From an uncultured bacterium (GTDB lineage Bacteria > Cyanobacteriota > Vampirovibrionia > Gastranaerophilales > Gastranaerophilaceae): a stretch of 64,000 bases of DNA. The stretch is taken from the NCBI GenBank assembly GCA_949290355.1, contig CASERN010000009.1, positions 1 through 64,000 on the forward strand, in the 5' to 3' direction. Positions 20,206 through 23,654 of the stretch are shown here, piece after piece (position 1 is the first letter of the stretch; every line of letters begins with the position of its first letter). A program made the position numbers and the translations under genes. Under the pieces are notes generated by a model. The model had not been told where the DNA came from. It made no database searches and saw nothing but the letters and a program-made list of their open reading frames with translations.

Positions 20206-21081
20206 TTGCAAAATACTATAACTAAAAATTACGAAAAAATTAAACAACCAAATCATTTTCTTCATTCTAATCAAAATCAATTCTCATATATTGAACAGAA
20301 ATTAAATCTTATTTTTTTAGATGAAATAAATTCTGAAGATTCAATATTTAAAAGAGTCAATAAGTCCGCAATACACAAAATGGCATTATTTCTATCTAAC
20401 GGAATACAAAGATCATGCTCTATTGGGATTGCAGGAGAAACAGCAAGCGGAAAGTCGACTATTGCTTTAGATATTATCAATACAATTCAAGATTTTGCAC
20501 AGGAATACTGTATTGAAAATGCAATTACAAGAATTAATACAGATGATTATTACTACGATCGTTCTGATATGGTGAAAAAAGCCGGTAGCTTTGCAGAATT
20601 TGCGAAACACTATGACCTCGATGTTCCGGAAGCTCTAGAACTTGAGTTGATGAAAAAACATATCAAAGCATTATTATTTGGGAATAAAGTGCTTTTACCA
20701 GAATATGATATGTCTGGAACAGCTATCAGAAGAGATAATGTAAAACCTGCATATCCTTCCAAAATTATCATTTCAGAAGGATTATTTACACTAACAGATA
20801 AAGTAGTAGATGCTTTCGATTTTAAAATATATGTAGATGTATCACATGATGTTCAAAAAGAAAGATTTTATAAAAGAGCCGCTGAAAGAGATCTAGGAGA
20901 CTCCGCAGATGAAGTATATGAAAATGCATCCAATAAAGCTAAAACTCATATTCATCCAACTGCTGATAGAGCTGACATAATTTTATCAGGAGAAGCTGAT
21001 AGAGCCTCTTATAGAAAATTTATCAATAAAATACTAATGCTTGTCAAAGAAGTCCATTTTAATGAATTAGTCATTTCTTAA
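20206..21081 (+). CDS. uridine kinase/phosphoribulokinase-family P-loop kinase
   Basis: The 291-residue protein has GIAGETASGKSTIA (Walker A) near residue 70, RINTDDYYYDRSD (substrate loop with two Asp) and LPEYDMSGTAIRRD. It continues with IIISEGLFTL and a lid rich in Arg (QKERFYKRAAERDLGDSADE), all typical of Udk-like kinases. It probably phosphorylates a nucleoside or related sugar. Starts with TTG after AAAGGA. The N-terminal 65 residues are not part of the kinase core. It overlaps the convergent membrane-protein gene by 11 bases. Confidence 0.85.
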   Translation: MQNTITKNYEKIKQPNHFLHSNQNQFSYIEQKLNLIFLDEINSEDSIFKRVNKSAIHKMALFLSNGIQRSCSIGIAGETASGKSTIALDIINTIQDFAQEYCIENAITRINTDDYYYDRSDMVKKAGSFAEFAKHYDLDVPEALELELMKKHIKALLFGNKVLLPEYDMSGTAIRRDNVKPAYPSKIIISEGLFTLTDKVVDAFDFKIYVDVSHDVQKERFYKRAAERDLGDSADEVYENASNKAKTHIHPTADRADIILSGEADRASYRKFINKILMLVKEVHFNELVIS

Positions 21082-22285
21082 TAGATTTCTGTTTTTGATT
21101 TTGCTCCCTATTATATCTTAATTTGGTGAATAAATTTGACGTTCCTGCGATAAAAAATCCCATAACTCCGATACCAAATAGTAATGGTAATCCTGCAATC
21201 AAAACTTTTTGTTTTAATAGTTTTTTGTACATGGAATTAGCCTCTTTACCGTATTTTTTCGAAATCTCTGCTAAATCTTTTAATTTGGGAACTTCCAAAT
21301 TTTCATTTATTAACTCTTTACACTTACCTCTTTTGTACAGAAATTTTCTAAAACCTTTTTCCAATAATTCATTTCCGCAAATAATATAAAAACCAACTAT
21401 TGGGTATCTGAATAATGTCTCTAAGAAATTTTGTTTCCCTCTGTCTTTTGATGCTCCAAAATACCCTGCACCTCCAACTAAAACACAAGAAGTAAGCTGC
21501 CCTCGGCTTAATGCTAATTTACCACTGTTATTGGCGAAATCTATACTTAAATATTTATTAAAAAAATCAGTTTTCTTTTTATTATTTTTAAAGAACTTTG
21601 TTCCAGGAGCCAAAATTAACTCAGAAAGATTCTGTAAAAATTTAGAATTTGCACCCTTTTTTATAAGTATTCCACTCAGTGCTAGGCAGCCAGAATAAAT
21701 ACCGGCGGCCAGTGCAATATGTTTTTTTGCACTTCTTTCAACTTTTTCAGCTTGCTTTTTATCGTTATTTTTGTTTTTATTCAAATTTGCAATATTTTCA
21801 AAATCAGCTTGCTTAAATACTTTCAATGTCATTAAATTTTTAAAATAATTTAGAGTATATTCAAATAACGGTATTGCAAATGCACTAAGAGCCAATGCTG
21901 CTTTTACAGGTAACAATTTTTTATTATCTGATAAATTATTTGATTTCAACAATTCATATGCAGGAGTTGAAATATTTTTTTTCAAATTATTTGGTAATTT
22001 TTTTGAATATAATTTTCTGAAAATATTTTCACCTAAAATAGTTGGGAAATAATAAACAAGAATAGATTCAGATAATTCTAAAAAAGTATTTTCTCCCAAA
22101 TCAGCTTTGCTTCTTGCAAAAACAGCTTTCGGGATAAGACCGGTTGCACTGTCTTGAATAAATCTAATATTAGAAAGTCCAGCTCCGCCTTCTTGGATTC
22201 CTATAATTTTACTCGCAACTTTTAATCCTGTTCCAATATTTCCTGCATTGGTAAATGTTACATTATTAACTTTATTTGTTTTCAT
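21071..22285 (-). CDS. membrane protein of unknown function under attenuator-like leader
   Basis: The ATG at 22285 follows AAAGGG by 6 bases and gives 404 residues; an in-frame TTG upstream lies inside the terminator hairpin and is rejected. The head MKTNKVNNVTFTNAGNIGTG is followed by LSESILVYYFPTILGENIF. Hydrophobic helices lie near 130 (ALALSAFAIPLFEYTL), 190 (LAAGIYSGCLALSGIL), 300 (YPIVGFYIICGNELL) and 375 (LIAGLPLLFGIGVMGFFIAG). The remainder is Lys/Asn-rich. It resembles in pattern the protein at 6947-8287. I cannot name it; a transporter role is not supported by any motif. Confidence 0.72.
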   Translation of the reverse strand: MKTNKVNNVTFTNAGNIGTGLKVASKIIGIQEGGAGLSNIRFIQDSATGLIPKAVFARSKADLGENTFLELSESILVYYFPTILGENIFRKLYSKKLPNNLKKNISTPAYELLKSNNLSDNKKLLPVKAALALSAFAIPLFEYTLNYFKNLMTLKVFKQADFENIANLNKNKNNDKKQAEKVERSAKKHIALAAGIYSGCLALSGILIKKGANSKFLQNLSELILAPGTKFFKNNKKKTDFFNKYLSIDFANNSGKLALSRGQLTSCVLVGGAGYFGASKDRGKQNFLETLFRYPIVGFYIICGNELLEKGFRKFLYKRGKCKELINENLEVPKLKDLAEISKKYGKEANSMYKKLLKQKVLIAGLPLLFGIGVMGFFIAGTSNLFTKLRYNREQNQKQKSIKK

Positions 22286-22309
22286 AAAAAATCCCTTTAT
22301 ATAAACTGA

Positions 22310-22345
22310 CAACAAAAAATAACCTGTATAAATCAAATACAGGTC
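22310..22345 (-). terminator. intrinsic terminator in the leader of the membrane-protein gene
   Basis: On the minus strand ACCTGTAT-TTGATTT-ATACAGGT is followed by TATTTTTTG. It ends about 25 bases upstream of the ATG it precedes, an unusual place unless it acts as an attenuator. Confidence 0.75.
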
Positions 22346-22412
22346 ATAACAAAAACTTAAAATATAATTATCAGCTTATTGCCAACTCAAACGACCTGTA
22401 TTATCATACAGG
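22337..22412 (-). promoter_or_regulatory. attenuator-like alternative hairpins after tandem Trp codons
   Basis: Four complementary segments follow each other on the minus strand. a: CCTGTAT (22412-22406); b: ATACAGGTC (22401-22393); c: GACCTGTAT (22345-22337); d: ATACAGGT (22329-22322). a:b gives 7 bp, b:c 9 bp and c:d 8 bp with a T run. Thus b:c excludes the terminator c:d, as in trp-type attenuators. Segment a lies immediately after two TGG codons of the mini-ORF. Confidence 0.55.
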
Positions 22413-22450
22413 CACCACCAAGATTGATTGTTTAAGTTTAAGATTGACAT
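22376..22450 (-). CDS. putative leader peptide with tandem Trp codons
   Basis: A 24-residue ORF starts MSILNLNNQSWWCLYDNTGR and ends LSWQ, with GAAGG 12 bases before the ATG. It holds three Trp codons, two of them adjacent. A ribosome stalled on the TGG pair would cover hairpin arm a and free arm b to form the antiterminator. This matches the known logic of amino-acid attenuation. The spacing of the ribosome-binding site is longer than ideal, and the gene controlled has no known tie to tryptophan. Confidence 0.5.
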   Translation of the reverse strand: MSILNLNNQSWWCLYDNTGRLSWQ

Positions 22451-22622
22451 AATTAATATTTTCCTTCTCACGTAAAAGCTAACACAAAAAAAATAAATAA
22501 TCAAGAAATAAAAATTTATTTATACTTTAGTTACAAAATATTTACATAGCTTATAGAAATAGCAAGAAATTAAATTTTCAAGTATTATAATAATATTGAT
22601 AAATCAGCTTCAGGAGATAAAA

Positions 22623-23654
22623 TTGCTTAAATTAACCCCTCAAAATTATATATCAAAACAGATAAAATTTGGGAATACAGAAAAAGTTAGTGAAAATAAA
22701 AGTAAAAAAGAGTCATATAATGACCCTTTAATGCAATGGCCGGCTAGAGGACTTGCATATTCAAACGAACTTGGAGCCGCAATTAGTGAAGTCGCCCCAA
22801 GATTAGGGACATTATTATGGTTCCCTGCTATGCTTTATTTTGGAGCTGATATTTATGATAAATATAAAAACGAAAAAACATCATATTCTCCTGATGCAAA
22901 AAGAGGAACAGAACAAGCAATATTCCAACTTTTAGCTAGTGTCTTTCTTCCAACAGGAGCTGTAATTGCAGGGCAGAAAATTGCATCAGCGATTGGTGTG
23001 CTTGGTAAAAATGGCCTTTCGCTACAATCTCAAGAAGAAATAATCAACTTCTTGCAAGATTTCACAAACAGAAGGCATATTGACAAACATCAAAATAATA
23101 TCACAGAATTTAAAAAACATTTTGTTGAATCTATATCTACAAAAAGAGAAAAATTAATTAGAGAAAATAAAATTAAAAATCCATTTAAAGTAATAAAGCA
23201 AGCTATATTCGGAAGACGTCATCCTGAATCTATTGCTATGTCAGAAAAAGACAGAGTTTTAAAATTTGCAGATACTCATATTGATGAAATGTTTACTCTT
23301 TATGATAATCTTATAAGAAATCAAAAACCTAAAGCATTTTCAAACAAAATGTGGAATACATTTGAAAAATTGAAAAACAAATATAAAAAAGATGCTGATT
23401 ATAAACTTACATACCTTAGAGATGCAGCTGAAGATACAATAAAAAAATATCAAAAAAGTAAAATTATGAATGCTAAAATTTTGAAAACTGTAGGAGGCTT
23501 TGTAGCTTTAGGCTTAGCAATAAAACCTATAGATAACTTTGTAGAACATGTTGTTATAAAAAAATATGTGGCTCCAAACCTAAATAGTATGTTTTCAACC
23601 AACAATACCTCAGTAGATAAAAAATCCACATCCTCTGAACAAAATAAAGCTTAA
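22623..23654 (+). CDS. membrane-associated protein of unknown function
   Basis: A TTG start 6 bases after CAGGAG is chosen; the first residues then read LLKLTPQNYISKQIKFGNTE with the initiator Met in place of the first Leu. The 343 residues include hydrophobic stretches near 60-80 (TLLWFPAMLYFGADIY), 105-125 (LLASVFLPTGAVIAGQKIAS) and 295-310 (TVGGFVALGLAIKP). Between them lies a long basic helical part. No family recognised; the pattern is similar to the other unknown membrane proteins here. The stop overlaps the convergent YhcH-like gene's stop. Confidence 0.68.
   Translation: MLKLTPQNYISKQIKFGNTEKVSENKSKKESYNDPLMQWPARGLAYSNELGAAISEVAPRLGTLLWFPAMLYFGADIYDKYKNEKTSYSPDAKRGTEQAIFQLLASVFLPTGAVIAGQKIASAIGVLGKNGLSLQSQEEIINFLQDFTNRRHIDKHQNNITEFKKHFVESISTKREKLIRENKIKNPFKVIKQAIFGRRHPESIAMSEKDRVLKFADTHIDEMFTLYDNLIRNQKPKAFSNKMWNTFEKLKNKYKKDADYKLTYLRDAAEDTIKKYQKSKIMNAKILKTVGGFVALGLAIKPIDNFVEHVVIKKYVAPNLNSMFSTNNTSVDKKSTSSEQNKA

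Follow-up and report, generated by a model that had tools for sequence, protein, structure and literature searches.

A candidate tryptophan-sensing leader-peptide attenuator upstream of a Trp-free membrane protein gene in Gastranaerophilales

Background

Most descriptions of leader-peptide attenuation concern genes for amino acid biosynthesis or for tRNA synthetases, from Proteobacteria, Actinobacteria and some Firmicutes (PMC2965389, PMC1262725). In the trpL class of Escherichia coli and of Corynebacterium/Streptomyces, a short ORF with two or three tandem UGG codons is combined with three mutually exclusive pairings and an intrinsic terminator (PMC1183508, PMC1262725). Cys-codon runs occur in short leader ORFs of Actinobacteria, which precede cysteine metabolism genes and have no conserved hairpins (PMC1262725). 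Ribosome-mediated attenuation also controls a membrane transporter, as documented for bmrB-bmrCD of Bacillus subtilis, where the signal is ribosome-targeting antibiotics and there are no tandem codons for one amino acid matched to product composition (PMC4191407). Finally, biosynthetic enzymes use little of their own amino acid, an effect that is strongest for Trp; this low cognate bias (Alves and Savageau) means that proteins needed during lack of an amino acid avoid it (PMC4209129).

The leader described here lies in a stretch of 64,000 nucleotides from an uncultured member of the Gastranaerophilaceae (contig CASERN010000009.1), which we call the window. It shares the short ORF, the tandem Trp codons, the exclusive pairings and the terminator with the trpL class. 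Unlike that class, it precedes a single membrane protein gene rather than trp biosynthesis genes or trpS, occurs in Gastranaerophilales and has an extra helix. We propose that it acts as a ribosome-mediated attenuator of transcription, with charged tRNA-Trp as its signal, and controls a protein made in Trp starvation; we put the probability of this reading at about 0.88.

Results and discussion

Layout of the leader and proposed mechanism

The leader and the gene that it would control are on the minus strand (Table 1). The leader ORF has 24 codons, a Shine-Dalgarno-like stretch and TGGTGG, and is predicted from these features to be translated. Four arms, here called a to d, allow three mutually exclusive pairings (1:2, 2:3 and 3:4), which are supported by covariation and by shuffled sequences (see below). 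The stem c:d, together with the following run of T, forms an intrinsic terminator in the window, and the ATG of the gene, at 22285, is 29 bases past the six T.

Table 1. Positions of the leader, terminator and gene features in the window
Feature	Positions	Strand	Basis
Shine-Dalgarno-like stretch of leader ORF (GAGAAGGAAAA, contains AAGGA)	22459..22469	minus	Read from sequence
Leader ORF, 24 aa (MSILNLNNQSWWCLYDNTGRLSWQ, then stop)	22376..22450	minus	WW counterpart at 76/76 ortholog loci
Adjacent Trp codons TGG TGG, codons 11-12, proposed stalling site	22415..22420	minus	Invariant across orthologs
Arm a, partner b	22406..22413	minus	Covariation
Arm b, partner a or c	22391..22402	minus	Covariation of a:b and of b:c
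Third Trp codon, codon 23, 11 codons past the Trp pair	22382..22384	minus	Spacing in relatives
Arm e, overlaps leader stop codon, partner f	22367..22379	minus	Covariation
Arm c, partner b (antiterminator) or d (terminator)	22336..22347	minus	Covariation and terminator scan
Arm d, 3' half of terminator stem	22319..22329	minus	Covariation and terminator scan
U-tract of intrinsic terminator, TTTTTT	22314..22319	minus	Terminator scan
Arm f, a few bases 5' of the gene's Shine-Dalgarno	22301..22313	minus	Covariation
Shine-Dalgarno of structural gene, AAAGGGA	22292..22298	minus	Read from sequence
Controlled gene, 404-aa helical membrane protein, no Trp, family unassigned	21071..22285	minus	

An initial annotation of this region had described a 24-residue ORF with TGG TGG directly before four arms, and its coordinates and description hold. 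It had also placed an intrinsic terminator just upstream of the gene start, and the c:d stem with its TTTTTT was indeed recovered in our terminator scan. The helices are the same as those annotated, but the lengths given for them (7, 9 and 8 bp) are slight undercounts: with G-U pairs allowed, a:b has 8 bp, b:c has 12 bp and c:d has 11 bp. Two features were absent from the annotation: a fourth helix, which is conserved and surrounds the terminator, and a third Trp codon in long leaders.

A ribosome that stalls at tandem codons of a leader covers the first arm and leaves the second one free. The positions in the window fit this geometry, with arm a starting 1 base past the Trp pair (22415 vs 22413) and arm b 12 bases past it. 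When Trp is sufficient, the ribosome would pass the Trp pair and leave the leader. Helix a:b would then form, or arm b would be covered at the stop codon; in either case c:d would pair and transcription would end at the U-tract. Under a shortage of charged tRNA-Trp, the ribosome would stall at codons 11-12 and cover arm a, such that b:c could pair, no terminator would form and the gene would be transcribed. Stalling, antitermination and the direction of the response are what we infer from the arrangement of these elements.

All four arms closely resemble a single palindromic motif, CCTGTAT/ATACAGG, so that chance hairpins, or a mobile repeat that encodes WW by accident, could in principle account for them. 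Yet when the 146-nt leader was shuffled 3000 times with its dinucleotides preserved, no architecture of four arms and a U-tract arose, even with arms of only 5 bp. Moreover, arms differ among orthologs and still pair, and strong matches to a model of the leader occur only before this gene (see below). On these three grounds we rejected this explanation, whose probability is negligible. The fold of the leader has a z-score of -4.2, and a scan for terminator-like sites found 2 vs 0.0 expected.

Upstream of the leader, at 22596-23654 on the plus strand of the window, is a divergent gene that encodes a lineage-specific protein with hydrophobic stretches and of no known family.

Conservation and covariation of the leader

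Relatives of the gene were picked on protein similarity only, and their upstream DNA is therefore an independent test of the leader. The best named relatives are metagenome bins of Candidatus Gastranaerophilales / Melainabacteria. The distribution of the gene is patchy, with a family match in 36 of 97 relatives and one copy in its own genome. Three of the loci (L032, L063 and L096) are on contigs labeled as Fusobacterium, Heliobacteriaceae and Clostridia, although they carry this Gastranaerophilales gene; these labels are probably wrong.

Among 80 ortholog loci, 4 are cut by a contig end, which leaves 76 with upstream DNA. At each of the 76, a short ORF that contains adjacent TGG codons precedes the gene (two of these ORFs start with TTG). 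Conservation of these codons in orthologs was one of two checks that had been proposed for the locus at the outset; the other was compensatory changes in the arms, and these were found as well. In an alignment of 26 divergent leaders, helices a:b and c:d together have 53 cells that changed on both sides, vs 14 in shuffles, and b:c has 20, vs 10 in shuffles. Pairing of a:b, b:c and c:d is lost if the partner is slid by 1-3 columns. Shuffles do not reach the covariation of these three helices in most measures. The sequences share descent, and p-values throughout this analysis therefore overstate independence. Orthologs with quite different arms pair in all three ways, for example with GCTTGCA/TGCAAGC (L022) or GTCTGCA/TGCAGAC (L021).

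In a search of 97 genomes with a covariance model of the leader, all strong matches (E < ~1e-7) are upstream of this gene, at one per genome. We read 15 of the weak matches (E > ~1e-6) by eye. One of them is a real leader with Cys codons (L170), in front of a different membrane protein gene, and we discarded the other 14 as terminators or gene ends.

The peptide before the Trp pair differs by clade (SILNLNNQSWW, NIQQQNINNWW, KIKSIVKLNNRWW and KNNILKLNKSWW), whereas the pair itself is constant. This pattern bears on a different kind of sensing, in which free Trp rather than lack of Trp would arrest the ribosome on the nascent leader peptide, as in TnaC. Conserved Trp residues in a leader peptide before a membrane protein gene would suit such arrest. 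However, an arrest peptide is hard to reconcile with a sequence that is conserved between clades in nothing but WW, with a terminator/antiterminator architecture instead of a Rho-dependent one, or with a Trp-free product, which points to scarcity. We consider TnaC-like arrest very improbable. The locus was not classed as a TnaC-type arrest peptide, given the variable peptide outside WW and the intrinsic terminator.

Nor does the leader belong to an established RNA class: a search with Rfam 15 found only two tRNAs in the window, and with E values of up to 10 allowed it gave no meaningful match in 22250-22560. A T-box, a known riboswitch and the Rfam Trp_leader were dismissed, as there was no match to curated RNA models.

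An intrinsic terminator, i.e., c:d (3:4) followed by a U-tract, is present in 46 of the 76 orthologs. For the other 30 (L073, L076, L091, L095 and about 26 other loci with Trp-codon leaders), our scan did not find the complete set of four arms and U-tract terminator. Most of these 30 have short leaders that end inside arm a, such as LNNRWWRL followed by a stop. The mode of control is less certain in these orthologs, and it may operate through translation start or Rho.

Helix e:f and the third Trp codon

The fourth conserved helix is formed by arm e, over the leader stop, and arm f, and it encloses the terminator hairpin. In 21 leaders, e:f is 86.8% paired and has a covariation score of 0.276; the score is 0.147 in shuffles and does not exceed 0.075 when the partner is slid. 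Arm f is only in read-through transcripts, because it lies past the U-tract. The helix might help ribosomes to pass from the leader stop codon to the start of the gene, or might protect the message, but these are guesses.

Among 36 long leaders with Trp codons, 35 have the third Trp codon exactly 11 codons past the Trp pair. A ribosome at this codon would cover arm b, or would hold a second ribosome over arm a. Similarly, 35 of 37 leaders with Met codons (described below) end with a Met near the stop.

Composition of the controlled proteins

The product was initially described as an unknown multi-helix membrane protein rather than the product of a tryptophan gene, and our analysis agrees. An AlphaFold2 model is that of an all-helical membrane protein (pLDDT 80.6, pTM 0.79), and a simple scale gives three strongly hydrophobic segments. 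No relative was found in Pfam, NCBIfam, a PDB sequence search, or a Foldseek search against PDB and BFVD. With the gene in no known family, what links it to Trp is the absence of this amino acid from its product.

Proteins encoded downstream of Trp-codon leaders (W-type) have about 400 residues, and 78 of 80 are Trp-free. A first count gave 77; the Trp of one further protein (L066) sits in an upstream extension through the terminator region, and this protein is hence counted as Trp-free. By comparison, neighboring proteins have a mean of 0.79% Trp, and 12 of 114 with similar length are Trp-free. The two W-type proteins that contain Trp (L072 and L104) have one each, in a site, NW[AV]PKA, that is common to paralogs with Met-codon leaders (M-type). 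In the protein tree, W-type sequences form one clade (100/99), and these two proteins are its first branch.

The M-type paralogs all contain Trp (35 proteins, 0.70%). They are poor in Met instead, with 0.77%, vs 1.39% in W-type proteins and 2.18% in the background (Mann-Whitney p ~2e-9 and ~2e-17, respectively, uncorrected for kinship). W-type proteins are thus somewhat Met-poor too, relative to the background. In a second membrane protein family, products downstream of Cys-codon leaders (C-type) are Cys-free or Cys-poor. They have 0.09% Cys, vs 0.84% in leaderless members (p ~4e-5), which are not Cys-poor.

These depletions resemble low cognate bias. By contrast with the known cases, however, the proteins are membrane proteins outside known biosynthesis, and the effect tracks the class of leader codon within a paralogous family.

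Paralogs with other leader codons

The M-type paralogs belong to the same family as the window protein (family 1), to which they are about 40-45% identical, and have leaders such as MIYTNTMMMQMMMQSLIRGGHCCANRMC. Of the M-type leaders, 34 were scored: a U-tract terminator is present in 33 and a competing b:c helix in 31. Met-codon-rich leaders (MMMQMMMQ...RMC, then stop) with terminators occur before Met-poor family-1 paralogs at L029, L111-L121 and L228-L253. When we searched with the pattern ATGATGATGNNNATGATGATG, most matches beyond M-type leaders of family 1 were parts of longer proteins; one of the others is at L268 (see below).

The second family is perhaps remotely related to the window protein (hhalign probability 89%, E 2.4e-6). 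Many members are leaderless, and one clade has Cys-codon leaders such as MKIKNSKSNNICCCCKIPQGFYGYLC (CCCC), 5 of 8 scored with a U-tract terminator. Leaders of this kind precede Cys-poor products at L198, L199 and L201-L207. They share the Cys-codon run with the actinobacterial leaders noted above, which differ in their lack of conserved hairpins and in their cysteine metabolism genes. One Ser-rich leader precedes a Ser-poor member of the second family (L200). The Ser type and an Ile type are represented by one case each, and the product of the Ile type is not Ile-poor.

Class-level relatives of the window gene (hhalign E 2.4e-35) include two with Met-rich leaders (L189 and L190) and one with a WWW leader (L191), all with terminators. 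The product of the latter is Trp-free, in contrast to its three relatives, which contain 2 to 9 Trp residues. This sequence is outside the W-type clade, though on a long branch, and the coupling of leader and product for Trp may have arisen twice.

Probable specificity for one amino acid

The initial annotation had left a choice between Trp-tRNA charging and general translation stress, and the evidence favors the former and speaks against the latter. Under general stress, the leader would sense a slowing or inhibition of translation, for example by antibiotics as in BmrB-BmrCD, and the Trp pair would be merely a slow spot. The B. subtilis system is a documented precedent for antibiotic-driven, ribosome-mediated attenuation of a membrane transporter (PMC4191407), and the target here is likewise a membrane protein. 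Nonetheless, the adjacent Trp codons are constant while nearby codons vary, paralogs have runs of Met or Cys codons in the same place, and the products are depleted in exactly the amino acid of the leader. Trp scarcity accounts for Trp codons that never vary, for the Met or Cys codons that take their place in paralogs and for the matching depletion; general stress does not, and we regard it as improbable.

The product has no Trp, and its full synthesis would therefore be possible when Trp is missing. The gene is one of several paralogs whose leader codons agree with the amino acid that is depleted in the product (Trp or Met, and Cys in the second family). Since each of these three classes of leader has a matched depletion, each is likely tied to starvation for one amino acid, not to general stress. 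The case for a Trp-sensing attenuator draws on features that are directly observed, namely the conserved leader, the covarying alternative pairings, the terminator and the cognate depletion. We give slightly better than even odds to the broader idea that Gastranaerophilales have a set of membrane proteins, each induced through a leader-codon attenuator when one amino acid (Trp, Met, Cys and perhaps Ser) is lacking, and each purged of that amino acid.

Possible roles of the membrane protein

Two readings of the role of the protein are live. In one, to which we assign somewhat less than an even chance, the protein helps the cell to obtain the missing amino acid by uptake or salvage. In the other, the leader is equally a Trp-specific attenuator and the difference concerns the role only: the protein would be an amino-acid-sparing substitute (Trp-free, Met-poor, Cys-free) and would have no part in uptake or salvage. 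There is reportedly a precedent, described by Mazel and Marliere in 1989, in cyanobacterial phycobilisome proteins that lack Met and Cys and are induced by sulfur starvation. In agreement with a substitute, the second family has leaderless, Cys-containing paralogs that are widespread and occur alongside Cys-poor C-type genes (e.g., in G046), and the gene stands alone: neighbor conservation revealed no partner gene, and no neighbor is shared by more than 13 of the 80 loci. On the other hand, leadered and leaderless proteins of the second family are only about 25-32% identical, which is far for a simple stand-in, and our search found no ubiquitous, leaderless, close paralog of family 1. A sparing role is accordingly a tentative proposal, slightly less probable than uptake or salvage.

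The genome of the window has no trpB above the curated cut-off. In the genomes that we compared for trpB and the gene, presence of the gene does not follow trpB loss, and hence shows no clear link to Trp auxotrophy as judged by trpB. Eight regions with trp operons or lone trpB genes of the lineage had no WW leader. In several Gastranaerophilales, trpB occurs without an adjacent trp operon (L259-L262, L264 and L265), and such lone trpB genes may point to indole salvage.

Relation to known attenuators

The mechanism itself is known. What appears to be new is the lineage, the non-biosynthetic targets, the class with Met codons and the agreement of leader codons with product composition. A literature search, with most subscription journals outside its reach, found no Met-codon attenuators and no leader peptides in Melainabacteria. 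If the proposals above are true, two things would be new: membrane proteins that form a starvation-specific, amino-acid-sparing system, and a class of ribosome-mediated attenuators with Met codons. Attenuation would here govern lineage-specific membrane proteins in uncultured gut relatives of cyanobacteria, with several specificities within one paralogous family.

The identity of the leader codon and the missing amino acid offers a proof of principle, from sequences alone, for determining what a leader senses. This match also suggests when an uncharacterized membrane protein family is used, namely when Trp, Met or Cys runs short in the gut, and makes the function of these families directly testable.

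Additional leader candidates

We also looked in ~1 Mb of flanking sequence for further leaders that combine a codon run with a terminator, and only the Trp-codon leaders of this gene stood out. The remaining candidates in this DNA were set aside as chance-like in appearance. One further locus, L268 (G036:C57), has two tandem Met-codon leaders at a contig end, with a terminator after the first.
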